Assembly: GCA_947259355.1 (NCBI GenBank)
Contig: CAMYMF010000009.1
Location: 1 to 64,000, forward strand
Reading direction: 5' to 3'
DNA length: 64,000 bases
DNA from: an uncultured Nitrospirota bacterium
Lineage (GTDB): Bacteria; CG2-30-53-67
Below are positions 5,990 through 41,191 of this stretch, piece after piece. The position numbers and the translations under genes are program-made. Each line of letters opens with the position of its first letter. The stretch's first letter is position 1. The notes beneath the pieces were generated by a model that was not told where the DNA came from, did no database searches, and was given only the letters and a program-made list of their open reading frames with translations.

Positions 5990-6018
5990 TTGAAGTTTGA
6001 CCTTCCGGCCTGTATACT
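5990..6018 (+). promoter_or_regulatory. Sigma-70-type promoter, leaderless arrangement
   Basis: TTGAAG (5990-5995), 17-base spacer, TATACT (6013-6018). The expected transcription start (about 6025) is within a few bases of the ATG at 6027 of the sensor kinase, leaving no room for a ribosome binding site. It also rules out the in-frame ATG at 5997, which lies inside the promoter. Confidence 0.65.
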
Positions 6019-6026
6019 CCGGGCAT

Positions 6027-8528
6027 ATGCTGGTGCGGACAGAGGCGAACCGAATCCTGAGCATTTTCGATATCCTGAAGATTCCCGTTCTGATCGTCGA
6101 CGGTGGCCGGTGTGTGGCCCATGCGAATGCGTCGGCGGAGGGGCTGTTGGGATATGAAAGCGCCGATCTGGCCGGTCGCAATCTGACGGATCTGATGGCC
6201 CCGACAGATCCCGGGATGGGCCGTGAGCGGCCCGAGAGTTTTGCAGACGTTCTGTCCTCCGGAGAAGAGGAACAGCGCCAATTTGAGGCGGTCTGCCGGA
6301 AGAAGAACGGCGATGAATTTCCGGCCCAGGTTGCCCTCATTGCGTGGAACGGCAAGGGCCACGAGCTGGTGGTCATTCAGGACATTTCCGATCAGAAAAG
6401 ACTCGAGCAGCGGGCCTCCCAGCGACGCAAAGAGCTTTCCGTCTTCAACACCTTCTCCGAGATCCTCAACGCGGAAGACCAGACCGATGCCATCATGCAG
6501 CGCACCGTGGAGATGCTCGTTGCCACCCTGGGCGTCAAAGCCGCGCTGATCCACCTCAAGGACCCGGAGGCCGACGCCCTGCATTTGAGGGCCCATGCGG
6601 GCTACGCATCCCAATATCTGTATGAACTGCAGCGCCTCCGGACCGGCGAGGGCTTGGCCGGCAAAGTGCTGGCATCGGGACGACCGCTTGTCGTGAAGCA
6701 GGCTTCCGAAGATCCCCGGGTCACCAATATCAATACGCGGGCGACGGGCATCCAGAGCATTGCGGCCGTGCCCATCTCGTCCCGGGGGGTGGTGTGGGGG
6801 GTCCTCTCTGTGATGAGCCGCCGGGCCGATTATTTTACATCCATGGATATGCAGCTCCTCGCGACGCTGGGCAGCCAAGTGGGGGTGGCCGTGGAGAACG
6901 TGGGGCTCATCGGAAAGCTTCAGGAGAAGATGAGCCAGATCGAACTGAGCAACGAACTGAGCAGTATCATCAATTCGAGCCTCAGTATCGGCACCCTCTT
7001 TCGCATCATGGTCGCGGAGATGCGAAAACTGATCGCCTATGACCGGGCCAGTCTGTTGCTCTACGATGACAAAGAGAACCACCTCGTTATCTTCGCCCTC
7101 GATACCGACATGAAGACGCACATGCCCAAGGGGATGGTGGCGCCCCTGGCAGGGACCAGCGCCGGCTGGGTGGTGCAGCACAATGAGCCCTGGATCAACA
7201 CCGATCTGCTTCGGGAGACCCCCTTTCCACTGGACGAAAAACTTCTGAAAGAAGGAATCCGCGCCACCATCAGCCTCCCCCTGTACCAGGAGCGAATGCT
7301 TGGGGTTTTCAATCTCGACAGCAAGGTGCCCGGTGCGTATCGCCGCCGGGATCTGGACCTGCTGCTCCCCGTGGCGAGACAAATGTCGGCGGCACTGGAA
7401 AAGGCGCTGCTCTTCGAGACAATCTCGCGGGAGAAGCGGGAATGGGAGAAGACCTTTGACGCCTTTACCGACATGGTCTGGATCGATGATCTGCGACACC
7501 GGATTGTGCGGGCCAACCAGGCCATGCTGAAAAAGGCCGGGCTCTCGGTCTCTGCACTCTCCGGCATGCGATGCACCGAACTGCTGCAGCGGCTGCGGAT
7601 CAGTTCGCAATGTCTTTGCTGCGAGACGGCGGCCACGAACCGCGAATCCTTTCGGGAAGTGCTGGGAGAGGAGGGCAGCATCTTCCACTTCGCGTCCTAT
7701 CCGCTCATGGACGACGAAGGCCGGCTCTATGCGATCCTGCACAACCTGCGGGACGTGACCAACCAGAAGCGCCTGGAACAGCAAGTGGTCCGGACGGACA
7801 AACTGGCTTCTCTGGTGACCCTGGTGGCGGGGATTGCCCATGAAATCAATAATCCCCTCGGGATCATTGCCGGTTATGCCGAGGCGCTTTTGAGTCGAGC
7901 CGAGGACCCGGCGCTGCTCAAGCTCGAAGCGTTCGAGGACTTTCCCGAGTATCTCGACACCATCCACCAGGAGATTTTCCGGTGCAAGGAAACCCTGGGA
8001 AGTCTTCTGGAATTCGCCCGGCCCCACCGCGCGCGGGCCCGAGAGCTGGACATCAATGAGACCATCAAGGAAGTGATTCTGCTGGTAAATCACCGGGCCA
8101 AGCGGCTGCATTGCCGGATCGAGCAGGATCTTGAGCGAGACCTGCCGAAGATAGACGCCGAGCCGGGAAGTCTGCGGCAGCTCTTCGTGAACATTATTAT
8201 CAATTCTCTCTATCACACGTGCGAAGGGGGTACCATTGCGATTCGCACCGGTCTGGAGCAGGCCGACGGCTCCCCGGGCCGCATCGCGGTGTCGATCCGA
8301 GACACGGGCGCGGGCATTCCGGCGGAAATCCTCGACAAGATCTTCGATCCTTTCTTTACAACGAAGCCCGTGGGAGAAGGCTCGGGTCTGGGTCTTGCCA
8401 TCTGTCACAAGATCGTGGAAGAACACGGTGGTGTCATCGAGGTGGAGAGCAGCGTCGGTCGCGGTACGACCTTTACCATCAAGCTTCCGACGAAGGAGAA
8501 CGATGATACGCGTTCTGGCAGTGGATGA
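6027..8528 (+). CDS. PAS/GAF sensor histidine kinase (NtrB-like output)
   Basis: 833 residues from the ATG at 6027. Order: PAS domain (about 8-120, with [15 protein letters not shown]), GAF domain (about 145-295), second GAF domain (about 320-470), a PAS-like segment (about 475-585), then HisKA with the phospho-acceptor His605 in [12 protein letters not shown]. The HATPase domain follows, with N box [16 protein letters not shown] and [15 protein letters not shown]. There is no membrane segment, so it senses a cytoplasmic signal through the GAF/PAS part. It overlaps the start of the sigma-54 activator gene by 26 bases and should phosphorylate that partner. A strong promoter ends 8 bases before the start codon. 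The signal is unknown; the methyltransferase operon just downstream is a candidate target. Confidence 0.9.
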
Positions 8529-9840
8529 CGAAGAGCCCTTTCGACGGCTGCTCAACAAAGAATTGACCCGCAAAGGGTTCTCCGTGGCGGTTGCCGCCGA
8601 GGGACAGGCGGCGCTGGCCAAGCTCGAAAAGAGCACGTTTGATGTGCTCCTTCTTGATATTCTCATGCCCGGCATGGACGGCCTGGCGCTGATGCAGACG
8701 CTGCAAAAAGATCCCTCGACGCCTCCCATTGTGGTGCTCACGGGCAAGGCCACGGTGGAGACCGCCGTGGAGGCCATGAAGAACGGCGCCTACGACTACA
8801 TCACCAAGCCATACAAGCTGGACGAGTTGGAAATTGTCATCCGCCGGGCCCATGAGTACGGTTCGCTCCGTTTGAAGAGTGAACTGTTGCAGAAGGAGCT
8901 GGTCCGCAAGGAATCACCAGTGGAGATGGTCGGGAGCAGCCCGCCCATGCGCGCCCTGCTCAGCCTGATTCGCAAGATCGCGCCGTCCGACTCGAACGTG
9001 CTGATCCTCGGCGAGAGCGGTACGGGCAAGGAGCTGGTGGCCAACACTCTCTGGCATTACAGCCGGCGGAGCGACCAGCCGATCATCGCGCTCAACTGCG
9101 CCACCTTCTCAGAGCCTCTCATGGAATCGGAGCTCTTCGGGCATGAGAAGGGCGCCTTCACCACAGCCTACGAAACCAAACATGGCATCGTGGAGGTGGC
9201 CGACGGGGGCACGCTCTTCCTCGATGAGATCGCCGAAATGCCGTTGGGCCTGCAGGCAAAACTGCTCCGGTTTCTGGATACCGGTGAGTGCCGCAGGGTC
9301 GGCAGCAACCGGACGCGCAAGGTGGACGTGCGGCTCATCGCGGCCACGAACAAGGACCTCAAGGACCAGGTTGTCCGCAAGAACTTCCGGGAGGACCTCT
9401 TCTACCGTTTGAATGTCATCCGGATTGAAATGCCCCCCCTCCGGGAGCGGCGCGAGGACATTGCCGAGTTGGCCCGGCATTTTATCCGCAAGTACGCCCG
9501 CAAAATGGCCAAACAGCCCCCCGGAATCGACGACGCGGCCCTGTCGGCATTGGCCAGATACGACTGGCCGGGAAACGTTCGGGAGCTCGAAAACGAACTA
9601 GAGCGGGCCCTGCTGCTCTGCGACACACCCCGCATCGGGGTGCAGGATCTTTCGGTCTCTGACCTGACCGCGAGCCCTTCTCTGGAGGATCAGCCCAGAC
9701 TCGAGGAGCTCGAGAAAGCCTGTATTCTCAAGGTGTTGCGCGAGAGTGGGGGCAACCAGAGCCGGGCAAGCCGGATTCTGGGGATCAACCGGAAGACGCT
9801 CTATTTGAAACTCAAGAAGTACGGCATCAGCGGCTCCTGA
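8503..9840 (+). CDS. NtrC-type sigma-54-dependent response regulator
   Basis: 445 residues; start at ATG 8503 after an AAGGAG site, overlapping the kinase gene. Receiver domain (1-120) has the acidic pocket VDDEE and phospho-acceptor Asp52 in LLLDILMPGMDG. The AAA+ domain has Walker A GESGTGKE near residue 170, Walker B GGTLFLDEIAEMP, and an Arg-finger region (FREDLFYRLNV). The C terminus has a Fis-type helix-turn-helix (NQSRASRILGINRKTLYLKLKKYG). The sigma-54-contacting loop reads GAFTTA (from residue 217) instead of the usual GAFTGA. That may alter sigma-54 contact or may be a natural subgroup variant. Its targets are unknown; I found no convincing -24/-12 promoter in the window. Confidence 0.92.
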   Translation: MIRVLAVDDEEPFRRLLNKELTRKGFSVAVAAEGQAALAKLEKSTFDVLLLDILMPGMDGLALMQTLQKDPSTPPIVVLTGKATVETAVEAMKNGAYDYITKPYKLDELEIVIRRAHEYGSLRLKSELLQKELVRKESPVEMVGSSPPMRALLSLIRKIAPSDSNVLILGESGTGKELVANTLWHYSRRSDQPIIALNCATFSEPLMESELFGHEKGAFTTAYETKHGIVEVADGGTLFLDEIAEMPLGLQAKLLRFLDTGECRRVGSNRTRKVDVRLIAATNKDLKDQVVRKNFREDLFYRLNVIRIEMPPLRERREDIAELARHFIRKYARKMAKQPPGIDDAALSALARYDWPGNVRELENELERALLLCDTPRIGVQDLSVSDLTASPSLEDQPRLEELEKACILKVLRESGGNQSRASRILGINRKTLYLKLKKYGISGS

Positions 9841-10052: not shown

Positions 10053-10394
10053 GTGGACAAGATTCTCATCTGCACTCCGGATCCCATCTTTCTCAAGAGC
10101 CTCTATGCATTTCTGCGAGAGCAGGGATATGCTGTTGAAACCACTGAACAGACGGCCCGTGCCGTGCAGCGCGTATTCGAGACGCACTACGCGGCTGTTA
10201 TTTTGGATGCCGATGGGGTGGGACTGTCGGCCAGAGAGGCTGTGCGGATCATGAAGCGTGTGGCCGCGGAGATGCCTGTTATCATCGCAGGAGCGACATG
10301 CAGCCCGGAGGGGGCGGTCTGCATCGCCGAACCGGTCGATCTGGAAGAGTTGGGGCAGGCGATTCGTGCCATCGTGGAACCTCACCTAAACTGA
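10053..10394 (+). CDS. Stand-alone receiver-like protein, degenerate
   Basis: 113 residues from a GTG start. The fold pattern of a response-regulator receiver is clear: KILICTPDP, then AAVILDADGVGLSAREAV with Asp51/Asp53 at the phospho-acceptor position, then MPVIIAGA and EPVDLEELGQAI. The conserved switch Thr/Ser is Ala (IIAGA) and the invariant Lys before the final Pro is Glu (AEPVDLEEL). Without that Lys, normal phosphorylation signalling is doubtful. It has no output domain. The UroD gene starts 29 bases downstream, so this protein may head the methyl-transfer operon as a binding or regulatory partner. Confidence 0.7.
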   Translation: MDKILICTPDPIFLKSLYAFLREQGYAVETTEQTARAVQRVFETHYAAVILDADGVGLSAREAVRIMKRVAAEMPVIIAGATCSPEGAVCIAEPVDLEELGQAIRAIVEPHLN

Positions 10395-10423: not shown

Positions 10424-11449
10424 ATGAAACCACGGGAGACGATTCTGAAAGCGTTTGAGGGAGGCAAGCCGGACCGGATTCCCGTCACTCTGTTCGGGGC
10501 CGGTATGTGGAGCATCAAGGACTTCGGCACGACTTTTAAGGAATTGTCTGACGATACGGGGAAAATGACCGACATGCTGACGACGCTGGCTGATAGGCTG
10601 CGTTGCGATGTTGTCTACGCCGGCTCGGGCTACAACAATTTTCATGCGGCGGCCTTCGGTGGCGGCGTCAAGTTTCGGGAAATGGGAGCACCCGACCTGG
10701 AGGGGCGGCTCATCGATGAGGAGGGGGATCTGGATCAATTCGATCTGGGTTCGTTGGACAAGCATCCGGTGATCAACACGGTCAAGAACGCGCTGAAGGA
10801 GACGAAGCAGAAGATCGGCGACGACTATGTGGTCACCATGACATCTTGGGGGCCGTTCACGCTGGGCGCCCGATTCGTTGACGAAGAGATCATGATGAAG
10901 GCCACTTTCAAGCGGCCCGACTTCGTCCACCGGGTGGTCGATTTTGCCACCGACCTGCTGATCCATCTCTATGAACCACTGGTGGCCGACGGAACGCTGG
11001 ACGTGATCAGTATGGCCGACCCCACGGCTTCGGGCGATTTGATCTCCCGCAAGCAGTTCGAAAAGTTTGCGTTGCCCTATTTGAAGAAATTTACGGACTG
11101 GACCCGATCCAAGGGGGTGTACACGCTGATCCATATCTGCGGCAATACGACCGACCGCCTCGAACAGATGCCTGAAACGGGGGCCAGCTGTATCAGCCTG
11201 GACCATAAGACGGACATTGCCAAGGCCAAGGAAGTACTGCATGGCAAGATGTGTTTCGGCGGGAACGTCGATCCTGTCGGCGTGATGCTGCAGGGATCGG
11301 TCCAGGATGTGGAAACTGCCTGTAAACGGGTGATCGAGACGGCGGGCACTGACGGGGGGTTTGTGCTGATGCCGGGCTGTGACATTCCGCCCACCGTGCC
11401 CTATGAGAACATCCAAAAGTTTGTGCAGGTGGCCCGGGAGTGGTCGTAA
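10424..11449 (+). CDS. Uroporphyrinogen decarboxylase-family (MtaA/CmuA-like) methyltransferase
   Basis: 341 residues, full length for the MtaA/CmuA branch of the UroD superfamily. These zinc enzymes move methyl groups between corrinoid proteins and a thiol or another acceptor. The metal ligands are present: His and Cys in LIHICGNTTDRL, and the distal Cys in VLMPGCDIPPTVP. It is a close paralogue of the protein at 26186-27214 (shared DPTASGDLISRKQFE, SLDHKTD, AKEVLHG). True porphyrin synthesis is unlikely given the Zn motif and neighbours. It is followed after 173 bases by a CMD-family gene and then mtrH-like, UroD and corrinoid genes. Substrate unknown. Confidence 0.88.
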   Translation: MKPRETILKAFEGGKPDRIPVTLFGAGMWSIKDFGTTFKELSDDTGKMTDMLTTLADRLRCDVVYAGSGYNNFHAAAFGGGVKFREMGAPDLEGRLIDEEGDLDQFDLGSLDKHPVINTVKNALKETKQKIGDDYVVTMTSWGPFTLGARFVDEEIMMKATFKRPDFVHRVVDFATDLLIHLYEPLVADGTLDVISMADPTASGDLISRKQFEKFALPYLKKFTDWTRSKGVYTLIHICGNTTDRLEQMPETGASCISLDHKTDIAKAKEVLHGKMCFGGNVDPVGVMLQGSVQDVETACKRVIETAGTDGGFVLMPGCDIPPTVPYENIQKFVQVAREWS

Positions 11450-11622
11450 TTTCCGGCGTGGGTGAGCAGAGGGGGGGTGGTTGTTTGCTGGTGCAGAGTC
11501 TAGAGTGATATCCAGCATGAAAGAGAGGGGATGGTATGGGGAGCTTCTGGGAAGAACTCAAAAGAATGTTCGGTCGGACTTCGGTAACGGAGCCTTCCGG
11601 GCAGGCCACGAAAGGAGAGGTT

Positions 11623-12069
11623 ATGACTGACGCGCAGAAAATGACGGTTGAAGAGGTCAACAAATACATGGAAGAGCAGTGCGGGTTTCTGCCGCGCATG
11701 TTCAAGATAATCAATACCGTATCCCCCGTTCCGGGCAAGACCTTTGCCGACTTCTATGCGTCCATCTTCAGTGACGGAGCGCTGTCCAAGTCGGTGAAGG
11801 AGTTGATGTTCATGGCGGGCGGGGTGGCCTACTGCTCCCCGCGGTGCATCATTCATGTGGTGCCCGCCATCAAGGCGGGAGCGACCTCGGAGCAGGTCTT
11901 CGAGGCGGCTGCCGTTGGAATGATTCTGGCAGGTTTCGTACCGGGCGGTCCCGGTATCCCTTACGCTTTTGAATACGCGTTGAAATGCGTCGACATCGAC
12001 GCCAAGTTCCGCAAAGGCGAGGATTGGGAATACCTGCCTCAGACCCAATTCGATCACGGGATTCACTAG
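11623..12069 (+). CDS. Carboxymuconolactone decarboxylase-family (AhpD-like) protein
   Basis: 148 residues from ATG 11623, chosen because a strong AAAGGAGAGG site precedes it. An upstream in-frame ATG at 11536 (29 more residues, also with a G-rich site) is possible. The all-helical CMD fold is recognisable from KELMFMAGGVAYCSPRCIIHV and AGATSEQVFEAAAVGMILAG. The usual redox motif of this family is Cys-x2-Cys-x3-His; here the two cysteines are three residues apart (C-S-P-R-C), followed by IIH. It may act as a thiol peroxidase-like or disulfide protein. The gene lies between the first UroD gene and the mtrH-like gene. Confidence 0.75.
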   Translation: MTDAQKMTVEEVNKYMEEQCGFLPRMFKIINTVSPVPGKTFADFYASIFSDGALSKSVKELMFMAGGVAYCSPRCIIHVVPAIKAGATSEQVFEAAAVGMILAGFVPGGPGIPYAFEYALKCVDIDAKFRKGEDWEYLPQTQFDHGIH

Positions 12070-12080
12070 CAGTTCCACCC

Positions 12081-12113
12081 GGCGGGGGGGCACCCCCCCC
12101 TCTCCCCCCCGCC
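12081..12113 (+). other. All-G/C hairpin between genes
   Basis: GGCGGGGGGG (12081-12090) pairs perfectly with CCCCCCCGCC (12104-12113), 13-base loop. There is no T-run after it, so it is not a classical terminator. It separates the CMD gene from the mtrH-like gene and may protect or attenuate the mRNA. The long homopolymer runs are also a likely place for sequencing error. Confidence 0.6.
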
Positions 12114-12143
12114 GTCACCGCATCAAGACTGGAAGGAGTGAGC

Positions 12144-13118
12144 ATGTTTGTCTTTTCAACGAAGCAGAAAGTATGTGAAATCGGCGGCTGCAAGGTCGGC
12201 GGCCAACCCGGGGAAACCCCCCCGCTTTTGATTGCGTCCATGTTTCATAACAAAGACCGCATCATGCAGGACCGCAAAGGAAATTTCGACCGCGAGAAGG
12301 CCACGGCGCTGATCCGAAAGCAGGAGGAGCTCTCCCAGGCGACGGGCATCCCGAGCCTGGTGGCCATGGTGGCTAATTCGGCGGAGGAGGCCAAGATCTA
12401 CATTGACTTCTATCTGGAGACTACGGACATGCCCTTCGGCATCGACATGTGGGTTCCAGAGAAAAGGGAAAAAGCCACCGAATACGTGGCGAATAAGGGG
12501 CTGCAGGAGAAGTTTCTGTACAACAGTATCACGCCGTGGGACAAGGACATCAAGGGGCAGGTGCAGCGGGTGAAGGATTTGGGGATCAAACATGTCATCG
12601 TGCAGGTCTTCGACGATACCGATCAATCGCCCACGGGGCGGCTGAAATCTCTGGAGCGGCTCCTCGAAGACGGGGCAGGGGATTTCGAGACGGTTCTGGT
12701 CGACTCCTCGGTGATGAATCTTCCCTCCACGTCCTTTTCCATGCTGGCCAATCGGCTCATCAAGGAGAAGTACGGCTTCCCCTGCGGGAGCGCTTACTCC
12801 AACGGTACCCATATGTGGAAAGAGTCGAAGGAGACCTGGGGGCTGGACGGATTCAAGGCGATGGACGCCGTGGCGCAGGGGATGTCGACGGCCTTCTGGA
12901 GCGACTTCAATTTTTACGGGCCCATTGTGACCGCGCCCCGGATTTTTCCGGCGGTGGCTACGGCACATATTCTGCTTTCCACTTTGGTGTACGACGAGAC
13001 GGGCGAGGTCCCCGGCAATGACGATCTCCCCATTCGGAGATTGTTCCCCGATTTCATCGAAAAACTGGTCGAAGGGGGCGGGCGCAAGAAGGCCAAGGCC
13101 AAAGCCAAGGCCAAGTAA
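12144..13118 (+). CDS. MtrH-family methyltetrahydrofolate/corrinoid methyltransferase
   Basis: 324 residues, start at ATG 12144 after GGAAGGAG. It belongs to the MtrH/MtgA family of pterin-binding TIM-barrel methyltransferases: N-terminal QKVCEIGGCKVGGQPGE, then PLLIASMFHNKDRI, SAYSNGTHMW and DFNFYGPIVTAPRIFP. In methanogens MtrH moves the methyl group of methyl-H4MPT to a corrinoid. Bacterial relatives (glycine betaine and O-demethylase systems) exchange methyl between corrinoid protein and tetrahydrofolate. Here it most likely links the corrinoid protein encoded at 14201 to folate C1 metabolism. The C terminus has an unusual Lys/Ala tail (KKAKAKAKAK). Cotranscribed with the UroD gene 29 bases downstream. 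Confidence 0.87.
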   Translation: MFVFSTKQKVCEIGGCKVGGQPGETPPLLIASMFHNKDRIMQDRKGNFDREKATALIRKQEELSQATGIPSLVAMVANSAEEAKIYIDFYLETTDMPFGIDMWVPEKREKATEYVANKGLQEKFLYNSITPWDKDIKGQVQRVKDLGIKHVIVQVFDDTDQSPTGRLKSLERLLEDGAGDFETVLVDSSVMNLPSTSFSMLANRLIKEKYGFPCGSAYSNGTHMWKESKETWGLDGFKAMDAVAQGMSTAFWSDFNFYGPIVTAPRIFPAVATAHILLSTLVYDETGEVPGNDDLPIRRLFPDFIEKLVEGGGRKKAKAKAKAK

Positions 13119-13147
13119 TCACGACAGGAGAGGAAAGGAGAAGGATT

Positions 13148-14197
13148 TTGAGCAAAGAGAAAGCAATGACGGAAACCATGACATCAAGAGAACGGGTTCT
13201 GAAGCTCTTTCAGGGGCAGGCAACCGATCGGCCCCCCTGTTTCAGCGGGATGGGCAATGTAACCACCGAAGGGCTGAACCAGCTGCAATACAAGTTTGCC
13301 AAAGTACACCTGGATGAATTTCAGATGGCCGAGACGGCGGTGACCACGCACAAACTTTTTGGTTTTGACGCTTGTGTGGTCCCCTTTGACCTCTGCGCGG
13401 AAGCGGAGGCCCTGGGCGCCAAAATCAACACCTATCCGGACTCGGAAGATCTGCTATACCCGACGATCAAGGAGAAGGTAATTCACAGCGAAGACGACAT
13501 GGACATCACCATCCCCAGGGACGTGAGCGAGCGAGGTCGGGTGCCGCTGGTGTGCAAAGCGATCACACTGGCGAAGCAGGCGCTGAAAGACGATGTCTGC
13601 ATCGGCTCCTATGTGCTCGGGCCCTTTACGCTGGCTGGGCAGATTATGGAATTGAACGACCTGCTGAAACTCTCCTTCAAGAAGCCCGACCGGGTGGGGA
13701 AGCTCCTGGAGGCTCTTACCTGTGTTATCGTTGCCGTGGCCAAGGCCTATGAAAAGGCGGGCGTCGATTACCTGACGGTTCGCGAGATGGGGGCCACCTC
13801 GGATGTGTTGAGCCCCCGGGTCTTCAAGAACCTGATTCTGCCTCACCTCAAGAGCATCTTCGAGCAGATCAGTGTGCCAAGCGTGATCCATATCTGCGGC
13901 AAGACCAACGATATCGTGGTCCCCATGATGGAAACGGGCGCCTCCGCCATCAGTGTCGATCAGAAGAACAACGTGGCGGACACCCGGAAAAAACTGGGGG
14001 ATTCGGCCCTGATTTTCGGGAATTATGATCCCTACAATGTGCTCGTCTCAGGCACCCCCGAACAGGTGAAAGAGACGATGACCAAATGTCTCGACGATGG
14101 CGTTTCGGCGGTGTGGCCCGGCTGTGACATCTGGCCGACGGTCCCGCCGGAGAATTTCAAATCCATGATGGAAACGGTCAGGGAGTATAGGAGATAG
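13148..14197 (+). CDS. MtaA-like (UroD-family) methyltransferase
   Basis: 349 residues. UroD superfamily, MtaA-type: RERVLKLFQGQATDRPP at the start, DYLTVREMGATSDVLSP in the centre, Zn ligands in VIHICGKTND and VWPGCDIWPTVP. It closely resembles the protein at 48539-49561 (shared TLREMGATSD-like, DQKN and WPGCD segments). The corrinoid gene starts 3 bases after its stop, an arrangement typical of a methyltransferase and its cognate corrinoid protein. It may be the substrate-side methyltransferase (as in O-demethylases) or the thiol-side MtaA type. The sequence alone does not decide this. Confidence 0.87.
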   Translation: MSKEKAMTETMTSRERVLKLFQGQATDRPPCFSGMGNVTTEGLNQLQYKFAKVHLDEFQMAETAVTTHKLFGFDACVVPFDLCAEAEALGAKINTYPDSEDLLYPTIKEKVIHSEDDMDITIPRDVSERGRVPLVCKAITLAKQALKDDVCIGSYVLGPFTLAGQIMELNDLLKLSFKKPDRVGKLLEALTCVIVAVAKAYEKAGVDYLTVREMGATSDVLSPRVFKNLILPHLKSIFEQISVPSVIHICGKTNDIVVPMMETGASAISVDQKNNVADTRKKLGDSALIFGNYDPYNVLVSGTPEQVKETMTKCLDDGVSAVWPGCDIWPTVPPENFKSMMETVREYRR

Positions 14198-14200
14198 GGG

Positions 14201-14899
14201 ATGGCGACAGAAGAGAGGAAGAAGGAAATATTAGCGAAGCTCCGCACCGCGGTGATCGAGTACGATGAGGACAGCGCCAAGGAAGGCGCGCAGGAAGCGC
14301 TGGATGAGGAGATCTATGCCAATGACGCTATCTTTGACGGACTCGTCAGTGGAATGCAGGAAGTGGGGAGGCTCTTTGAGGCCGAAGAGTATTTCGTGCC
14401 CGAGATGCTCATGTGTGCGGACGCCCTCTATGCGGGCCTGGACATTCTGAAGCCCCACGTGGAACAGCTCGATCTGGGGGTCAAGGGATCGGTTGTCATC
14501 GGGACGGTGGAAGGGGACGTGCACGATATCGGCAAGAATATCGTGAAGATGATGTTCGATGTAGCCGGTTTCACCGTTTACGACCTGGGTCGTGACGTTC
14601 CGCTGGACAAGTTCATCGACGAGCAGCTCCGGACGGATTCAGAGCTGGTCTGTCTCTCGGCCATGATGACGACCACCATGGTGGGGATGCAGAAGGTGAT
14701 CGCGGACCTGAAGAAGAAGAATCCCAATGTCAAGATCATGATCGGCGGGGCGCCCGTTTCCGGAGACATTGCGGAGAAGTGGGGTGCCGACGGCTATGCC
14801 GATGACGCGACCAATGCGTTGGCGGACGCCATTAAAATGGTCAGTTCGCTGAAGCAGCTTAAGGAAGAGGCGGAGGCCAAGGCGAAAGACAACCCATGA
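14201..14899 (+). CDS. Corrinoid (B12-binding) methyl carrier protein
   Basis: 232 residues, the normal length for MtaC/MtbC/MttC-type carriers. A four-helix N-terminal cap (1-90) is followed by a Rossmann B12-binding domain with the lower-ligand motif GDVHDIGKN, in which His108 should coordinate cobalt, then GRDVPLDKFIDEQL, CLSAMMTTTMVGMQ and IMIGGAPVS. The protein carries the methyl group on cobalt between the UroD/MtaA and MtrH-type enzymes encoded next to it. Its stop overlaps the next start (ATGA). The second corrinoid protein of the window (41192-41866) has the same length pattern and His108. Confidence 0.95.
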   Translation: MATEERKKEILAKLRTAVIEYDEDSAKEGAQEALDEEIYANDAIFDGLVSGMQEVGRLFEAEEYFVPEMLMCADALYAGLDILKPHVEQLDLGVKGSVVIGTVEGDVHDIGKNIVKMMFDVAGFTVYDLGRDVPLDKFIDEQLRTDSELVCLSAMMTTTMVGMQKVIADLKKKNPNVKIMIGGAPVSGDIAEKWGADGYADDATNALADAIKMVSSLKQLKEEAEAKAKDNP

Positions 14900-15558
14900 A
14901 AGATGCGTTGAAGAGCCTGCTCCTGCGCTCCGGTGCGACGGTGGTGGGGGTCGCCTCCATTGAAGACTATGTCAACGGCGACATCGGTCACCTGACGCGG
15001 GCGGTCTCCATTGGCTTGGACGGCAATCTGCGGGAACGCACGCTCGACAAACTCAACAGCCTACAAAAGAAGGCGGCGCGATACCTGAAGGAAAAGGGCT
15101 ATCGATACCTCTGCATTCCGCCGGATTCGGATCGGATTACGGATCGGTTTGTGGCCAAACTCTACCCACTGGTCACGCACAAGATGGCCGCCACCTGTGC
15201 CGGAATCGGCTGGATCGGCCGAAACGGCCTCCTCATCAGTCCGCGCCACGGTCCGCGACTCTCCCTTGCCACGGTGCTCACCGATGCGCAACTGGTGCCC
15301 GACCCCCCCATGGAACGTAGCCTTTGCGGGGAGTGCCGGTTGTGCGAAGAGCATTGTCCCTCGGGTGCCATTACCGGGGAGTCGTGGTCCCGGAATGAGC
15401 CCTATCCCGACCTGATAGAAACCTCGCTGTGCCGGAGCCACAAGGCCGAGCGGCGAAGCCTTGCGGGGCGGCCGAACTGCGGTCTGTGCCTGGCCATCTG
15501 TCCCCACGGGCGGATGAACCTCAGCCGACACCCCGAGTGTATCAAGAGCATTGTGTAA
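14896..15558 (+). CDS. Two-[4Fe-4S] ferredoxin-like protein, QueG-related
   Basis: 220 residues. The N-terminal part resembles epoxyqueuosine reductase (QueG)-type proteins without being one (CAGIGWIGRNGLLISPRHGPR). It is followed by two 4Fe-4S motifs, CGECRLCEEHCPSGA and CGLCLAICPHGR. It overlaps the corrinoid gene by 4 bases and precedes the RamA-like gene by 10. In this context it probably delivers low-potential electrons for reactivating Co(II) to Co(I) or takes part in the methyl-transfer cycle. It lacks the length of a full QueG (about 350-380 residues). Confidence 0.75.
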   Translation: MKDALKSLLLRSGATVVGVASIEDYVNGDIGHLTRAVSIGLDGNLRERTLDKLNSLQKKAARYLKEKGYRYLCIPPDSDRITDRFVAKLYPLVTHKMAATCAGIGWIGRNGLLISPRHGPRLSLATVLTDAQLVPDPPMERSLCGECRLCEEHCPSGAITGESWSRNEPYPDLIETSLCRSHKAERRSLAGRPNCGLCLAICPHGRMNLSRHPECIKSIV

Positions 15559-15568
15559 AGGAGATTCC

Positions 15569-17545
15569 ATGAGCGGAAAGTGGAAGGTGAATTTTCAGCC
15601 CTCCGGACGGCGGGGGGAGGTCGAGGCAGGCAAGACGCTCCTCGATGCAGCGCAGCGTCTCGGGGTCGATCTCGAATCGGTCTGCGGCGGCAAGGGGACC
15701 TGCGGCAAATGCAAGGTCCGGGTCGAGGAGGGGTATTTCGAGAAGGACGCCATGGAATCGAGGATGTCCCACCTCAGCGGTCTGTCGGACATGGAGCGCA
15801 AATTCATCAAGCCCGAAGACGGCCCCCAGATGCGGCTTGCCTGCGCCGCCGAAGTGCACGGCGACGTCAAGCTCTTCGTGCCGGAGAAGTCGCGGGCGGG
15901 GAAACAGATCGTCCGCAAGGCGGCCCGGGACATCCGGGTCACCCTCGACCCGGCAGTGAAAAAGTACTGCCTCAAGCTCGAGCCCGCAACACTGCACGAC
16001 CTGTCCAAGGGAGATGCCGAGAGGATACGAGAGGCCCTGCAGACGGAATACGGCCTGACCGATCTGGAGATGGACTACACGGTGCTGCGAGATCTTCAGG
16101 ACCGGATCCGCGAGGGCGCCTGGGAGGTGACGGTGTCCGTCTGGATGGACCGGGAGATCGTCAAGGTGGAGCCGGCCTTTGTGACCGTCTCCTACGGGCT
16201 CGCCGTGGACGTTGGGACGACCACGGTGGCGGCCTATCTCTGCGATCTGGAGACGGGCAAGGTGGTCAACACCGAGTCGATGATGAATCCCCAGGTCCCC
16301 TACGGCGAAGACGTCATGTCCCGGATCACCTACGCCATGACCCATGAGGACGGACTGGCCACCATGCGCAACGCCATTATCGGCGGGATCAACGAGCTGA
16401 TCGACAAGATCACCGCCGATATCCGGGCCAACGGCGCCGACGGCGGTGCCGCCATCGTCGACATGACGGTGGTCTTCAACACGGCCATGCACCACATCTT
16501 TCTCGGCTTTAATCCCGTCTATATCGGCCGCGCGCCCTTTATTCCGGCTGTGCAGGACAGTCTGAACATCAAGGCGTCGGCGCTGGGGATCCGGATCAAC
16601 CCGGCCTCCTACGTGCATGTGCTGCCCATTGAGGCCGGGTTTGTGGGGGCCGACAACGTGGGGGTCCTGATTGCCGAGGAGCCCTACCATTCGGACGACA
16701 CGGTGCTGATCATCGATATCGGTACGAACGGCGAGCTGCTGCTCGGGAACCGCGAAGCTGTCTGCTCGACGTCCTGTGCCACCGGTCCGGCGTTTGAGGG
16801 TGCCCAGATCAAATTCGGGATGCGGGCCGCGCCCGGTGCGATCGAGAAGGTTCGTATCGACCCGGAGAGCCGTGAGCCCCAGTACAAGGTGATCGGCAAG
16901 GCCGATTGGCACACCCATATCGAGAAGGTGAATGCCAAAGGGATCTGCGGCTCCGGGATCATCGACGTCATCGCCGAGATGTTCAAAGCGGGAATCATCG
17001 ACAAATCGGGCAAGTTCGTCAAGGACCTGGAGACCCCCCGGGTCCGGAAGGATGCCGACGGCAAGCCCGAGTATGTGTTGGCGTGGGCCGATGAAACATC
17101 CATCGGCACCGATATCACGGTGACCCAGAGCGACGTGCGCGCCCTGCAGTTGGCCAAAGGGGCCCTGTACGCAGGCGCCAAACTGATGATGAAGCGGATG
17201 GGGATCGAAAAACTGGACCGCGTCGTCCTGGCGGGCGCCTTCGGCAGCCATATCGACACGGCGGCCTCGCTGACGCTTGGCATGTTTCCGGACTGCCACA
17301 TTGAGAAGGTCTACGCCGTTGGTAACGCAGCGGGGGATGGCGCCATCATGGCCTTGATCAATCGGGACAAACGACGGGAGGCGTGCCAGAAAGCCCGCTG
17401 GGTGCAGTTCGTGGAAATTGCTGTGGAACCGGGATTCGAGAAGGAATTCATGATGGCCATGCATATTCCCCACATGAAAGACCCCTTCACGAACCTCAAA
17501 GGATTGCTGGAAAAGGAAAAGGTTCCTGTCAACATCAAAGGCTAA
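15569..17545 (+). CDS. RamA/RACo-like corrinoid activation protein (ferredoxin + ASKHA domain)
   Basis: 658 residues from ATG 15569 (AAAGGAGATTCC site). The N terminus is a [2Fe-2S] ferredoxin with Cys39, Cys45, Cys48 (VCGGKGTCGKC) and a fourth Cys near 92 (MRLACAAEV). A linker domain follows, then a large ASKHA ATPase-like domain (DUF4445): GLAVDVGTTTVAAYL, IIDIGTNGELLLGN, GICGSGIIDVIAEM, LAGAFGSHID. RACo, AE and related proteins use ATP to drive reduction of inactive Co(II) corrinoids back to Co(I). It should serve the corrinoid protein at 14201. A paralogue is at 39098-41050. Confidence 0.93.
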   Translation: MSGKWKVNFQPSGRRGEVEAGKTLLDAAQRLGVDLESVCGGKGTCGKCKVRVEEGYFEKDAMESRMSHLSGLSDMERKFIKPEDGPQMRLACAAEVHGDVKLFVPEKSRAGKQIVRKAARDIRVTLDPAVKKYCLKLEPATLHDLSKGDAERIREALQTEYGLTDLEMDYTVLRDLQDRIREGAWEVTVSVWMDREIVKVEPAFVTVSYGLAVDVGTTTVAAYLCDLETGKVVNTESMMNPQVPYGEDVMSRITYAMTHEDGLATMRNAIIGGINELIDKITADIRANGADGGAAIVDMTVVFNTAMHHIFLGFNPVYIGRAPFIPAVQDSLNIKASALGIRINPASYVHVLPIEAGFVGADNVGVLIAEEPYHSDDTVLIIDIGTNGELLLGNREAVCSTSCATGPAFEGAQIKFGMRAAPGAIEKVRIDPESREPQYKVIGKADWHTHIEKVNAKGICGSGIIDVIAEMFKAGIIDKSGKFVKDLETPRVRKDADGKPEYVLAWADETSIGTDITVTQSDVRALQLAKGALYAGAKLMMKRMGIEKLDRVVLAGAFGSHIDTAASLTLGMFPDCHIEKVYAVGNAAGDGAIMALINRDKRREACQKARWVQFVEIAVEPGFEKEFMMAMHIPHMKDPFTNLKGLLEKEKVPVNIKG

Positions 17546-17554
17546 ACACGGGGT

Positions 17555-17890
17555 ATGACAAAACTGAAGATTCAACCGGGTGCATGCGACCTCGCTGCCG
17601 TGGTTGCAGTGGAAAAGAAGGACGGACGCACCTTCTCGGTCGTCATCCGCTCCGAGTGTGAGATGCTTGAAAAGCTCGGTGCGGAAATTGCCCATTTGAC
17701 ACTGACCGAGGCATTCCGGCGCATTGGAGACAACCCGGTCTATCTAAAGGCATCGGCCATCTTGAAGCATCCTTCCTGCCCCGTTCCTTCCGGTGTGTTG
17801 AAAGCCGTGGAAGTCGAGGCGGGGTTGGCCGTGGCAAAGGAGGTCCGCATGGCATTCATGGAGACGCCCCCCTCCGAGGTAACGGTATGA
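17555..17890 (+). CDS. Small conserved protein linked to methyl-transfer genes (DUF6951-like)
   Basis: 111 residues. A tentative match, from memory, is a short family of unknown function (DUF6951). Visible hallmarks: an N-terminal GACDL, a central RSECEMLEKLG, and the C-terminal HPSCPVPSGVLKAVEVEAGL. Three cysteines (in GACDL, SECEM and HPSCPVPSG) could bind metal or act in redox. It is 9 bases behind the RamA-like gene and overlaps the cysteate-synthase-like gene by 4 bases, so it is translationally coupled to both. Its position suggests a role in corrinoid methyl transfer or coenzyme M synthesis. Confidence 0.72.
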   Translation: MTKLKIQPGACDLAAVVAVEKKDGRTFSVVIRSECEMLEKLGAEIAHLTLTEAFRRIGDNPVYLKASAILKHPSCPVPSGVLKAVEVEAGLAVAKEVRMAFMETPPSEVTV

Positions 17891-19146
17891 GTCATTTTTC
17901 CCTGAAATGTCGGCATTGCGGCGTTCGTCTGGCGGCGGCGGACATGACCGTGCGGGAGCATTGTTCCGATGCCCTGCTCACAACGGAATACACCGACCGG
18001 CAGTTTGCTGAATCGGAGCATGGAGGACTCTGGCGGTTCAACTGGCTTCCAGTGCATGAGGTGCCCGGAGAAGCGGCCGGTCCCGTGGTCTTCCCATCGC
18101 AAAGGCTGGGTCCGTCATTGGGGCTGGAGAACCTGGCGATCGCTTTCAATGGGTATTGGCCGGAGAGAGGCGCCGGCATTCGGACGTGCACTTTCAAGGA
18201 GTTCGAGGCGGAGGTGGTGCTGGCCAACGCCAAAGAGAACGGCAAGAGCGGCATGGTGGTGGCCTCCGCCGGCAACACGGCCCGGGCCTTTGCCCACCTC
18301 TCGGCCGAGTCCGGCTTTCCCGTGATCATCTTGGCCCCGGCCATGTGTCTGAAGGACATGTGGTATCTGGAGTCCTCGTCTCTGGTGCCCACACTGATTC
18401 TGCACGACGGGGATTACTCGGATGCCATTGAGATGTCGCAGCGGATTGCGGGCATCGCCGGCATGCCCTGTGAAGGCGGCGTGCGGAATGCCGCGAAACG
18501 GGATGGACTCGGCATCGTACTGCTCGAGAGCGTCGCAGCGTCCGGCAAGCTGCCGGATCACTATTTCCAGGCGGTCGGCAGCGGCGCCGGTGTCATCGCT
18601 GTCTGGGAGATGAGTGAGCGTTTCATACGGGACGGACGCTACGGTGACAAGCCGCCGGTCCTTCACATTGCCCAGAACCTCCCCTTCGCGCCCATGGTGC
18701 GTGCATGGCAGCGGGGTACGCGCCGCATGGCGGATGAAGATCTTGACCCGAATCTGATCCGAAAGATATCCACCCGGGTCCTTTCAAATCGCTACCCGGC
18801 CTATGCGGTTGCGGGTGGGGTCTATGATGCCCTCAGTGCCACCGGCGGCGTCGCGTACGGAATCACCAACGAGGAAATCTGCGCCGCCATGATCCGTTTC
18901 GAGGAGGCCGAAGAGATCGACATTGTACCGGCGGCGGGCGTGGCCGTGGCGGCCCTGATTCAGGCCGTGGAGAACAAGACAATCTCTCCCCAGGAGCGGG
19001 TGCTGCTCAATATTACGGGCGGCGGTGAGAGCCGCATTCGGCAGGAAGGAAAGGCCCGGCCCGTGGAAGACCAGATCCGCGTTTCCAAATCGATGACCGA
19101 CGCAGAGATAGAAGGGCTTTTGTGTACTGTCCTGAAGAGGACCTGA
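17887..19146 (+). CDS. Cysteate synthase-like PLP enzyme (threonine synthase family)
   Basis: 419 residues, fold-type II PLP enzyme. A zinc-ribbon-like N terminus (LKCRHCG, REHCSDALLTTEY) is typical of threonine/cysteate synthases. Lys104 in CTFKEFEAE is the predicted PLP lysine, followed by SAGNTARAF and the C-terminal NITGGGESR phosphate-binding loop. The match is to Methanosarcina-type cysteate synthase, which makes L-cysteate from O-phosphoserine and sulfite. The strongest support is the next gene, a ComDE-like sulfopyruvate decarboxylase, which acts two steps later in the same coenzyme M route. Plain threonine synthase is less likely because the substrate-loop region differs and the context is C1 metabolism. 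The transaminase step would have to come from elsewhere. Confidence 0.8.
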   Translation: MSHFSLKCRHCGVRLAAADMTVREHCSDALLTTEYTDRQFAESEHGGLWRFNWLPVHEVPGEAAGPVVFPSQRLGPSLGLENLAIAFNGYWPERGAGIRTCTFKEFEAEVVLANAKENGKSGMVVASAGNTARAFAHLSAESGFPVIILAPAMCLKDMWYLESSSLVPTLILHDGDYSDAIEMSQRIAGIAGMPCEGGVRNAAKRDGLGIVLLESVAASGKLPDHYFQAVGSGAGVIAVWEMSERFIRDGRYGDKPPVLHIAQNLPFAPMVRAWQRGTRRMADEDLDPNLIRKISTRVLSNRYPAYAVAGGVYDALSATGGVAYGITNEEICAAMIRFEEAEEIDIVPAAGVAVAALIQAVENKTISPQERVLLNITGGGESRIRQEGKARPVEDQIRVSKSMTDAEIEGLLCTVLKRT

Positions 19147-20249
19147 TCCGGATCATGAAAGGTTGCGGGATCGATCTGCTCTGCACCCTCCCCTGCGATC
19201 GTGTCCGGAACCTCATTGCCCTGACGGATCGCTCCTTCTTCCGGCTGCCGCTGACCCGGGAGGAGGAGGGGGTGGGGATCTGTGCCGGCGCGGCGCTGGC
19301 CGGCAAGCGGCCCGCCATGATTGTCCAGAGTTCCGGCGTGGGGAACATGATCAATGCTCTGCTCTCCCTCACCCAGTTCTACGCACTGCCTCTGGCCCTC
19401 TTCATCAGCCAGCGCGGGATCTATAAGGAGGGGATTGCAGCGCAGGTTCCGATGGGACAGGCCCTTCCGAAATTGTTGAACGCGGCTGGAATTCCCTACA
19501 GTGTCATTGATACCCAGGAGAAGCTCCCGGGGATGGCGGCCGATCTGGAGGCGCTGTACCGCGAAGAGAAGATCCACGCCTTCCTGCTCAGCCCTGCTCT
19601 GTGGGAGGGCTCGGAACTCACCCTGGAGTCGAGCCCTGCGCGGTGCCAGTGTGAACCGACAGAGCTGGCCCCGCGACGGGAGGCCCTCTGGCCGTCTCTG
19701 ACGCGCTACCAGATTCTCGAAGCCCTGCGCGCGATACTGGACGGGCAGGCCGTGATCTGCAACCTCGGGATTCCCGCCAAGGAACTCCACGCCATTGTGC
19801 CGCAGCCCTCCAATTTCTATATGCTCGGTAGCATGGGAATGGCCACGCCCATCGGTCTCGGGGTGAGTCTCTTCACGGACCAGCGGGTCTTCGTGGTGGA
19901 CGGAGACGGCAGCCTCCTCATGAATCCCGGGAGCCTGGCCACCTGTGCCCAGGCGCGGCCCGCCAATTTGACGATTCTGGCGATCGACAACGCGTCCTAC
20001 GGTTCCACGGGAAACCAGCCGACACTCACGAATGTCTGCGTCGACCTCGAACTCGTGGCCCAGGGGTTCGGTATCCGGCACACGGCCAGGGTTGCATCAA
20101 AGGAGGAGCTTCTGGACGCGGCGCAGTTACGGCCAGCGGGGACCCATTTCATTCATGCCGTGGCCTATCCCGGAAATGCCGCGGTGCCGAACATTCCGCT
20201 GGCCGCGCTCGAGATAAAGAGGAAGTTTCAAGATTTCCTTTGCGCATGA
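19122..20249 (+). CDS. comDE: Sulfopyruvate decarboxylase, fused ComD-ComE type
   Basis: 375 residues from GTG 19122 (overlaps the previous gene by 25 bases; ATG 19155 is an alternative). Residues 1-165 match the alpha part (ComD): GIDLLCTLPCDR, REEEGVGICAGA, IVQSSGVGNMINALLSL and SQRGIYKEGIAAQVPMGQ. Residues 190-375 match the beta part (ComE): LGSMGMATPIGLG, the TPP/Mg motif GDGS at 261-264, and DNASYGSTGNQPT. The enzyme decarboxylates sulfopyruvate to sulfoacetaldehyde, the direct precursor of coenzyme M. A fused arrangement next to cysteate synthase is known from Methanosarcina. Phosphonopyruvate decarboxylase is the main alternative; the cysteate synthase neighbour and absence of phosphonate genes argue against it. 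Confidence 0.82.
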   Translation: MYCPEEDLIRIMKGCGIDLLCTLPCDRVRNLIALTDRSFFRLPLTREEEGVGICAGAALAGKRPAMIVQSSGVGNMINALLSLTQFYALPLALFISQRGIYKEGIAAQVPMGQALPKLLNAAGIPYSVIDTQEKLPGMAADLEALYREEKIHAFLLSPALWEGSELTLESSPARCQCEPTELAPRREALWPSLTRYQILEALRAILDGQAVICNLGIPAKELHAIVPQPSNFYMLGSMGMATPIGLGVSLFTDQRVFVVDGDGSLLMNPGSLATCAQARPANLTILAIDNASYGSTGNQPTLTNVCVDLELVAQGFGIRHTARVASKEELLDAAQLRPAGTHFIHAVAYPGNAAVPNIPLAALEIKRKFQDFLCA

Positions 20250-24207: not shown

Positions 24208-24230
24208 GGGGTCGTCTCTCCTGTTAGCCC

Positions 24231-24258
24231 GGAGATCACTCATGCAATATCCGCGCTA
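24231..24258. repeat. Dispersed intergenic repeat, copy 3
   Basis: GGAGATCACTCATGCAATAT then CCGCGCTA. On the minus strand it begins exactly at the stop codon (TAG) of the 589-residue gene and fills the gap before the LarC2-like gene. With the preceding TAGCCCGG it has short inverted ends. Confidence 0.6.
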
Positions 24259-34645: not shown

Positions 34646-34719
34646 GTTTTGTTCCCCCATGGACAGAGACCGGACATGGCAAACAGTCATCCCAATCCGG
34701 TCTGTATGAGGGGTCTGGA

Positions 34720-36260: not shown

Positions 36261-36497
36261 ATGCAGCTTACGATAGAGTATTGCAACACCTGCAATTACC
36301 GGCCCATGGCGGCCAGTCTGGCCATGCTTGTCAAGAGAGAAACCGGACTGGATGCCCTGCTGTCGGGATCCAGAAACACAGGTGCCTTCGAAGTTCGTCT
36401 GGATGAAGAGCTCATCTTTTCCAAATTGGAGACCAACGCCTTTCCCGAGCAGGGGGAGATCGTAAGAGCTCTCAAAGAAAGGATACGAAAAGAATGA
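36261..36497 (+). CDS. Rdx/SelW-like thioredoxin-fold protein
   Basis: 78 residues, the usual size of the SelT/SelW/SelH (Rdx) family. The opening LTIEYCNTCNYRPMA has the Cys-x2-Cys redox site (Cys8, Cys11), here without selenocysteine. The C-terminal half has the family-like GAFEVRLDEELIFSKLETNAFPE split over residues 42-64. It probably carries out thiol-disulfide exchange. Its stop overlaps the start of a UroD-type methyltransferase gene (ATGA), so the two are translationally coupled, which is unusual for this family. Confidence 0.85.
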   Translation: MQLTIEYCNTCNYRPMAASLAMLVKRETGLDALLSGSRNTGAFEVRLDEELIFSKLETNAFPEQGEIVRALKERIRKE

Positions 36498-37483
36498 ATC
36501 AGAAGCAAAGATTGCTCAAGGCCCTGCAACGGGAAGCCGTGGACCGCCCGCCGGCGGCGATACCGACCCAGTCGGCCATCGCCGACGTGATGGAACGGAG
36601 CGGATACCGATGGCCTGCGGCACAGCGACAGGCGAAAGAAATGGCCGGTCTTGCCTGGGCCTGCCACGAAATCGGCGGCATTGAAAGCGTGCGGGTACCC
36701 TTCGACATCAATATTGAAGCCGAGGCCATGGGGTGTGAGACCCGATTCGGTGACGATGCGACCACGCCCCCCATGTCTCGCCCGATGCACAAGAGTGATT
36801 ATGAGAAGATCAAGCTTCCCGATCCCCATCGGGACGGGCGGATGCCTGAGGTGCTGGAGGCCATTGCCCGGCTCAAAGAGAAAACGGGGAACGAGGTCCC
36901 CTTGATTGCGGCTTGTGGCACTCCCTTCGAGCTTCTCTGTACGACACTTGATTTTGAGGCCATTACTTTGTCGCTCACCGACGACCCCGCTTTTCTCGAA
37001 GCGCAGCTGGAAAAAATGACCGAGATTGCGACACGGTACGGCCAAGCCATCGAGGGGGCGGGCCCCGATGTCTTGATGCTGGTCGACGGTACCTCCCAGA
37101 CCATCGGACCCAATTACTACAACCGATTCTCCTATCCGTACACGAAAGCACTGGTGGAGTCCTTGCGCAAACCAACGATCCTGCATGTCTGCGGAAACAC
37201 AACGGGCATTCTGACGATGATGGCCGACACGGGGGCCACCGCCCTGAGTGTGGACCGCCCCATCGACATTGCGCACGCTCTGGAGGTGACAGAGGGACGG
37301 ACGGCGCTCGTCGGTAAAATCTCTCCCCAGACCCTCCTGCAGGGAGATCGGGAAGCCATTGTGTCGGAGACGGAAGAATCCCTGCGTCTGGGCATGCACG
37401 TCGTTGCACCGGGCTGTGGTCTGCTGCCCCAGACACCCCTGGAAAACCTGCAGGCTTATCTGGATACCGTTGTGCATTTTTAG
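36494..37483 (+). CDS. UroD-family (MtaA-like) methyltransferase
   Basis: 329 residues. MtaA-like UroD protein: KQRLLKALQREAVDRPP, GIESVRVPFDINIEAEAMG, Zn ligands in ILHVCGNTTG and VAPGCGLLPQTP. It is coupled to the upstream Rdx gene and convergent with the DUF1638-like gene. There is no corrinoid gene beside it, so it must share a corrinoid protein with other loci. Of the window's UroD proteins it is, with MtaA of methanogens, among those most likely to act on a thiol acceptor, but this is inference. Confidence 0.86.
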   Translation: MNQKQRLLKALQREAVDRPPAAIPTQSAIADVMERSGYRWPAAQRQAKEMAGLAWACHEIGGIESVRVPFDINIEAEAMGCETRFGDDATTPPMSRPMHKSDYEKIKLPDPHRDGRMPEVLEAIARLKEKTGNEVPLIAACGTPFELLCTTLDFEAITLSLTDDPAFLEAQLEKMTEIATRYGQAIEGAGPDVLMLVDGTSQTIGPNYYNRFSYPYTKALVESLRKPTILHVCGNTTGILTMMADTGATALSVDRPIDIAHALEVTEGRTALVGKISPQTLLQGDREAIVSETEESLRLGMHVVAPGCGLLPQTPLENLQAYLDTVVHF

Positions 37484-41173: not shown

Positions 41174-41191
41174 GGTCTTTTTGCGCACCAC

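Follow-up and report, generated by a model that had tools for sequence, protein, structure and literature searches.

Predicted archaeal-type coenzyme M synthesis genes in a corrinoid methyltransferase operon of Nitrospirota bacteria

Organization of the operon and identity of its last two genes

We analysed a 64,000-nucleotide stretch of DNA from an uncultured Nitrospirota bacterium (hereafter the window; GenBank assembly GCA_947259355.1, contig CAMYMF010000009.1, positions 1 to 64,000). One strand of positions 10424–20249 carries, in this order, genes for MtaA1, CMD, an MtrH-type enzyme, MtaA2, a corrinoid protein, an Fe-S protein, RACo, DUF6951, a predicted cysteate synthase and a predicted fused ComDE (Table 1). 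The last two genes of this operon overlap by 25 bases (19122–19146). An earlier note, made from the sequence alone, had read them as methanogen-type genes for coenzyme M (CoM) synthesis. Both open reading frames (ORFs) are present, together with the overlap and the motifs on which that reading drew (CTFKEFEAE and NITGGGESR in the first product; SQRGIYKEG, GDGS and YGSTGNQ in the second), and so are the MtaA-, MtrH-, corrinoid- and RamA/RACo-type genes said to precede them with overlaps or tiny gaps, for which the spacing ranges from −8 to +86 bases. The span then noted, 17555–20249, also takes in the DUF6951 gene (17555–17890), which overlaps the cysteate synthase gene by 4 bases.

The product of 17887–19146 scored 456 bits against the equivalog model TIGR03844 (curated cut-off 324.9), full-length cysteate synthase orthologs giving 427–492 bits; the best threonine synthase model reached 94 bits (cut-off 303). 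Searching solved structures returned cysteate synthase 9k3c at 290 bits, compared with 45 bits for the best threonine synthase there; in the sequence alignment, identity was 43% to 9k3c and 27% to the best threonine synthase. The length of 9k3c (435) would fit a tagged MA3297 of Methanosarcina acetivorans, the gene of which lies at 4068958–4070208 (PMC12713407). In phylogenetic trees, for which the tree program issued a long-branch warning, the bacterial sequences and 9k3c formed a single clade at 100/100, separate from every threonine synthase. Moreover, 52 alignment columns were diagnostic: 9k3c and 90% or more of the 35 bacterial sequences have them in common, as against no more than 15% of the 26 threonine synthases. 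Model, structure match, trees and diagnostic columns thus all agree with the assignment of the pyridoxal phosphate (PLP) enzyme as cysteate-synthase-like, and the prediction that 17887–19146 encodes a cysteate synthase is well supported.

The same applies to the prediction that 19122–20249 encodes a sulfopyruvate decarboxylase in which ComD and ComE are fused, as had been proposed. Both halves lie in one ORF. The ComD (alpha) half scored 182 bits against TIGR03845 (cut-off 147.95), and the ComE (beta) half 213 bits against TIGR03846 (cut-off 221.5), with 230 bits in the ortholog from L046. The model for phosphonopyruvate decarboxylase, TIGR03297, gave 188 bits, clearly below its cut-off of 312.5.

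Table 1. Genes of the operon and associated features in the window
Feature	Position	Strand	Evidence
Sensor histidine kinase, first of a two-component pair ahead of the operon	5997..8528	+	Orthologs (46–64%) near the operon in G003, G005, G145, G146
NtrC-type sigma-54 response regulator, start approximate	8494..9840	+	Orthologs (60–71%) adjoining the kinase in G003, G005, G145, G146
Small receiver-domain-like protein, conserved ahead of MtaA1	10053..10394	+	tblastn, most related operons
MtaA1, UroD-superfamily corrinoid methyltransferase, candidate methyl-donor (substrate) enzyme	10424..11449	+	PF01208, 206 bits; His-Cys-Cys zinc motif
CMD, carboxymuconolactone-decarboxylase/AhpD-fold protein	11536..12069	+	PF02627; position kept across operons
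MtrH/MtgA-type methylcorrinoid:tetrahydrofolate methyltransferase (predicted)	12132..13118	+	NF002142, 342 (cut-off 287)
MtaA2, candidate methylcobamide:CoM methyltransferase	13148..14197	+	NF004889, 267 (cut-off 244); best solved match 4ay7
Corrinoid (B12-binding) methyl-carrier protein	14201..14899	+	PF02310/PF02607 above cut-off; TIGR02370, 198 (cut-off 215), just below
QueG/RdhA-like Fe-S protein	14896..15558	+	Fer4 domains; weak RDH/QueG matches
RACo/RamA-type ATP-dependent reductive activator of the corrinoid protein	15551..17545	+	PF14574, PF17651, PF17650, PF00111
DUF6951, small protein	17555..17890	+	PF22263, 96 bits
Predicted cysteate synthase (O-phosphoserine + sulfite to cysteate)	17887..19146	+	TIGR03844, 456 (cut-off 325); PDB 9k3c, 290 bits; trees
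Predicted fused ComD-ComE sulfopyruvate decarboxylase	19122..20249	+	TIGR03845 above cut-off; TIGR03846 just below
MtaA4, MtaA-type methyltransferase; membership in the system uncertain	36494..37483	+	NF004889, 303 (cut-off 244); 36% identity to 4ay7
NarI/HdrE-like membrane cytochrome b	50104..50961	-	PF02665, 26 bits; two invariant His columns in family alignment
HdrD-like Fe-S protein, two complete CCG motifs	51248..52498	-	PF02754 (twice); best NCBIfam TfrB, 121 (cut-off 385), below cut-off

Conservation, distribution and associated redox genes

The operon has the same gene order in the sister genome G003 and in the Nitrospirae metagenome-assembled genome (MAG) SZUA-242 (L044); it is divided over two contigs in G005, again in this order, and in B_NIT_04 (G146) its methyltransferase and CoM parts lie on separate contigs. 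The corrinoid protein is 76–90% identical between operons. Among ten genomes compared, orthologs of MtaA2 occurred in exactly the five with a cysteate synthase and were not found in G001, G002, G004, G006 and G007 (Fisher 0.004, not corrected for relatedness).

An initial scan with an alignment of three cysteate synthases gave three loci only, its peptide patterns being family-specific. A profile hidden Markov model (HMM) search found far more: 61 of 396 genomes sampled from the phylum of SZUA-242 (Nitrospirota by NCBI) carried a cysteate synthase at E < 1e-60, 59 of them above the model cut-off. DUF6951 was found in 65 of the 396 genomes and in 60 of the 61 cysteate synthase carriers (hypergeometric P ~6e-64, a value inflated by relatedness). 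In a broad bacterial sample (n=386, mostly one genome per family), the cysteate synthase model was passed in four genomes, namely that of the window, G003, G005 and G737, the last from another bacterial family. The gene pair adjoining a methyltransferase/RACo operon, for which the earlier note had called for a survey of bacterial genomes, is not a chance arrangement: pair and order recur in sister genomes and in dozens of Nitrospirota genomes.

Examining 20 Nitrospirota regions, we found ComDE directly after cysteate synthase in all of them, save for a DsrE-like gene in between in one, and the full gene order, MtaA1 through ComDE, in 15. An HdrD-like gene lay close to the pair in 19 of the 20, usually behind a gene for an HdrE/NarI-like membrane protein. 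In seven regions an ORF recognizable as FolD stood between DUF6951 and the HdrE-like gene (one of the seven was confirmed by Pfam and also matched NCBIfam FolD models), tying the pathway to one-carbon (C1) units bound to tetrahydrofolate (THF). In G204 and G405 (L151 and L152), a gene for a methyl-accepting chemotaxis protein immediately precedes the HdrE-like gene, in the place that FolD has elsewhere.

The window also contains an orthologous HdrDE-like pair (50104–52498), located on the opposite strand 30 kb from the operon; its HdrD-like and HdrE-like proteins are 58% and 52% identical, respectively, to those of a pair inside the G348 operon. Each of the 21 HdrD-like proteins examined has two CCG motifs that follow the CX31-39CCX35-36CX2C pattern of heterodisulfide reductase (PMC5296606), with one outlying spacing of 34 (L150), and an alignment of 22 of the membrane proteins has two invariant histidine columns. 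Because every score of the HdrD-like proteins against the NCBIfam models TfrB, DsrK, GlpC and LdhH was under cut-off, we refer to the pair as HdrDE-like rather than HdrDE. As for methyl-CoM reductase (MCR), none of which had been visible to the earlier note, a search with PF02249 detected none in ten genomes, the window's included, even at E values of up to 10, with M. jannaschii and M. acetivorans as positive controls.

A probable role in corrinoid-dependent methyl transfer

The two MtaA-type enzymes of the operon differ in their model scores. MtaA2 exceeded the cut-offs of broader subfamily models (NF004889, 267 against 244; TIGR01463, 242 against 235), and its best solved match was the methylcobalamin:CoM methyltransferase 4ay7 (145 bits); MtaA1 scored 174 bits against the CoM-methyltransferase subfamily model NF004889 and stayed below the cut-off of 244. 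Ligands of the His-x-Cys...Cys zinc site were conserved in 19 of 19 MtaA1 and 20 of 20 MtaA2 orthologs (39/39 together), and the window's six MtaA-type proteins all keep this His-Cys-Cys site, which Kountz and Balskus describe as a mark of S- or Se-methyltransferases (PMC10418091). The MtrH-type enzyme matched the solved methylcorrinoid:THF methyltransferase 6sj8 (148 bits) and MtrH 8z9u (181 bits), and the QueG/RdhA-like Fe-S protein probably transfers electrons to the corrinoid.

From these assignments we infer the substrates, CoM as the end product, the substrate of the HdrDE-like pair and the direction of methyl flow. Cysteate synthase would convert O-phosphoserine and sulfite to L-cysteate, which a general aspartate aminotransferase encoded outside the operon would turn into sulfopyruvate; fused ComDE would then yield sulfoacetaldehyde, and sulfide or a sulfur carrier would complete the conversion to CoM. 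A single corrinoid protein, common to the methyltransferases of the operon, would join up to three methyl pools, with MtaA1 exchanging methyl groups between a methylated compound, probably a thioether, and the corrinoid protein, MtaA2 between the corrinoid protein and CoM, and the MtrH-type enzyme between the corrinoid protein and THF. RACo and the Fe-S protein would hold the corrinoid in the Co(I) state, and the HdrDE-like pair would most likely pass electrons between quinones and a CoM disulfide. A catabolic methyl flow towards THF agrees with the presence of FolD and of regulators of the sigma-54 type; flow in the opposite direction is possible.

A possible contributor to the last step of CoM formation is DUF6951, a candidate carrier of sulfur or Fe-S. 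It has four invariant residues (C11, C35, H72 and C75), and its predicted model (predicted local distance difference test (pLDDT) 90) ranked IscU/SufE-family proteins at positions 1–25 of the PDB matches, at E values of 0.09 and above. Foldseek returned no match below E 0.001 with this model, and profile comparisons of DUF6951 with IscU, IscA and HscB showed no similarity, so that the likeness to IscU/SufE comes from the predicted structure. Among 14 control genomes, only M. acetivorans was positive for DUF6951. In G348, a DsrE/DsrF-like protein is encoded between the genes for cysteate synthase and ComDE (L139:12480-12896); sulfur transfer in the last CoM step is possible for it.

Taken together, we think it probable that the operon combines a bacterial CoM synthesis module of the Methanosarcina type with a corrinoid methyl-transfer pathway that it serves. 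The HdrDE-like pair, DUF6951 and the distribution across Nitrospirota, all of which go beyond the earlier note, strengthen the case for CoM. That note had suggested that CoM, or a related sulfonate thiol, could accept or donate the methyl group in a bacterial MtaA system: such a function would fit the conserved operon, in which MtaA1 and MtaA2 keep their zinc sites. Several observations weigh against a CoM pathway. The ComE half falls slightly short of its cut-off in most family members. Neither MtaA1 nor MtaA2 reaches the narrow archaeal MtaA/MtbA equivalog cut-offs, MtaA2 scoring 243 against 400 (NF040654) and 186 against 600 (NF041608). No comparable HdrD was found in G003 and G005 despite the remaining operon, indicating that the HdrDE-like pair is not indispensable. 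Cysteate-synthase-like genes also occur without comDE, for example on Streptomyces plasmids. Finally, no protein passed the MMP16/ComF model TIGR03287; the best scores were 112–120 bits against 364, from a single HcyBio (COG1900-type) protein encoded elsewhere in the genome of the window, and COG1900 was missing from all 61 Nitrospirota cysteate synthase carriers. Without a recognized CoM synthase, the pathway could end with sulfoacetaldehyde or lead on to a different sulfonate.

The latter outcome underlies an alternative that we consider unlikely: the gene pair would supply sulfoacetaldehyde for taurine, for isethionate or for some new thiol or cofactor bearing a sulfonate group, and its position behind the methyltransferases would stem from a common requirement for this compound, not for CoM. 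Besides the lack of ComF/COG1900, it would accommodate both the Streptomyces gene, which lies downstream of an ORF resembling a nonribosomal peptide synthetase, and the G737 pair, which has no methyltransferase operon within 15 kb upstream. Against it stands the position of the pair among MtaA-type, MtrH-type and HdrD-like genes, that is, CoM-using enzymes or their likes; moreover, a non-enzymatic reaction of sulfoacetaldehyde with sulfide to give CoM is thought possible even in methanogens (PMC12713407). It is still less likely that the operon is a salvage cluster for methylated sulfur or selenium compounds, akin to type 1 mlp clusters, that passes methyl groups to THF and has its CoM genes for general thiol protection. 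Known bacterial mlp clusters do combine MtaA-like His-Cys-Cys proteins with a corrinoid protein and RACo (PMC10418091), and an antioxidant role has been suggested for CoM in Methanosarcina (PMC12713407), but as described these clusters have no THF methyltransferase and CoM synthesis is not mentioned for them (PMC10418091), whereas the present CoM pair overlaps or lies directly against the operon genes and is distributed as they are.

Activities on phosphonopyruvate and of the threonine synthase type are common in the two enzyme superfamilies, and a decarboxylase and a PLP enzyme of these kinds would leave no sulfonate pathway. We regard this as very improbable given the low TIGR03297 score, the 131 bits by which the PLP enzyme exceeds the cysteate synthase cut-off, its clade with the solved cysteate synthase and its lower identity to threonine synthases than to 9k3c. 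The idea of archaeal DNA mis-binned into bacterial MAGs, to which the methanogen-like gene content and the many MAGs among the carriers could point, is largely refuted. The genes occur in dozens of genomes, one carrier region (G297) lies on a 2.29-Mb contig, which rules out mis-binning as a general explanation, and the G003 contig has DnaK/ClpB-type genes; in addition, the bacterial sequences are about 60% identical among themselves but 43% identical to 9k3c. Because the operon encodes RACo and a corrinoid protein, alkene or epoxide metabolism of the Xanthobacter type was set aside, though without a search for the Xanthobacter genes.

A further-reaching version of CoM-based methyl transfer, which we hold to be improbable, is a bacterial C1 pathway resembling (reverse) methylotrophic methanogenesis in which an unknown enzyme takes the place of MCR. 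CoM would be synthesized by the bacterium, this enzyme would make or use methyl-CoM or another alkyl-CoM and so conserve energy, the soluble MtaA, corrinoid and MtrH proteins would link methyl-CoM with methyl-THF, FolD would act on the THF branch and the HdrDE-like CoM-disulfide enzyme would operate in the membrane.

The individual parts of the system are known, and their combination in bacteria appears to be new. The CoM literature consulted describes one pathway from bacteria (Xanthobacter) and two from archaea (PMC12068725). The window resembles the type 2 (Methanosarcina) pathway in that cysteate synthase is followed by a fused comDE, as in MA3297–MA3298 of M. acetivorans (PMC12713407), and in that the aspartate aminotransferase is expected outside the locus (PMC12713407; PMC12068725); it differs in the bacterial host, the lack of MMP16/ComF (MA3299 there), the position of the genes behind corrinoid methyltransferases and the absence of MCR from the ten genomes. 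With the Xanthobacter-type pathway it would share CoM production by a bacterium, but that route starts from phosphoenolpyruvate and uses its own enzymes for alkene metabolism (PMC12068725), whereas the window appears to encode the archaeal phosphoserine route. For type 1 mlp clusters, Kountz and Balskus report no CoM synthesis (PMC10418091); compared with these, the window adds an MtrH-type THF methyltransferase, the HdrDE-like pair, DUF6951 and the predicted CoM genes, and some operons FolD. Like HdrDE/DsrMK-type modules, the window pairs an HdrD-like protein, which has two complete CCG motifs, with a membrane protein of the NarI fold, except that the scores of its HdrD-like protein lie under the cut-offs of the matched NCBIfam models. 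As in corrinoid O-demethylase and glycine betaine (Mtg) systems, there is a substrate methyltransferase, a corrinoid protein, an MtrH-type THF methyltransferase and RACo; unlike these, the window has a second MtaA-type enzyme, predicted CoM synthesis and an S-type instead of an O-type zinc site. A literature search found no report of this system and none linking CoM synthesis to Nitrospirota or Thermodesulfovibrio; most subscription journals lay outside this search, so a prior report is possible.

Our analysis points to an archaeal-type CoM pathway in approximately 15% of sampled Nitrospirota genomes, accompanied by corrinoid methyltransferases and usually an HdrDE-like pair. If this holds, CoM would be a methyl carrier in widespread anaerobic bacteria, comDE and cysteate synthase genes in metagenomes could no longer be read as methanogen markers, and there would be a natural setting in which to seek MCR-independent use of methyl-CoM. 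For the final step in making CoM, which is poorly understood, DUF6951 is a candidate that can be put to the test.

Neighbouring genes and related loci

Other MtaA-type genes lie downstream of the operon. MtaA4 is the closest protein of the window to the solved MtaA (4ay7). MtaA3 adjoins genes on the minus strand (23698–26025) for a 589-aa protein without a Pfam or NCBIfam family (24256–26025) and then a LarC-type protein for nickel insertion. The predicted structure of the 589-aa protein is of low confidence (pLDDT 39). Rhizobium plasmids encode homologs of it (36% identity), and the homolog that was examined has as neighbours larC, a second gene resembling larC, larB and a gene for a nickel transporter; the 589-aa protein is possibly an unknown nickel-pincer-dependent enzyme. 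A second methyltransferase cluster (39098–49624, minus strand) encodes RACo2, corrinoid protein 2, MtaA5, a DUF2284 protein, a CobW-type GTPase and MtaA6, as well as a VWA protein with a CbbQ/NorQ-type ATPase. Between the methyltransferase clusters (29505–34789, minus strand) lie a TonB-dependent receptor of the B12/siderophore type and ABC transporter-like genes, the latter recognized from their ORFs alone, which would fit a high demand for corrinoid.

In another bacterial family, the cysteate synthase–comDE pair of G737 (L160:15075-17455) is 40% and 44% identical to that of the window, and its cysteate synthase groups with 9k3c. Downstream of the pair is a gene for an NMT1-like substrate-binding protein, and a similar protein is encoded near comDE in G005. 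The cysteate-synthase-like gene of the Streptomyces plasmid (L161:10001-11194; 39%) has no comDE nearby; the ORF upstream of it, which looks like a nonribosomal peptide synthetase gene, encodes 3321 aa, and the enzyme may supply cysteate for a natural product.

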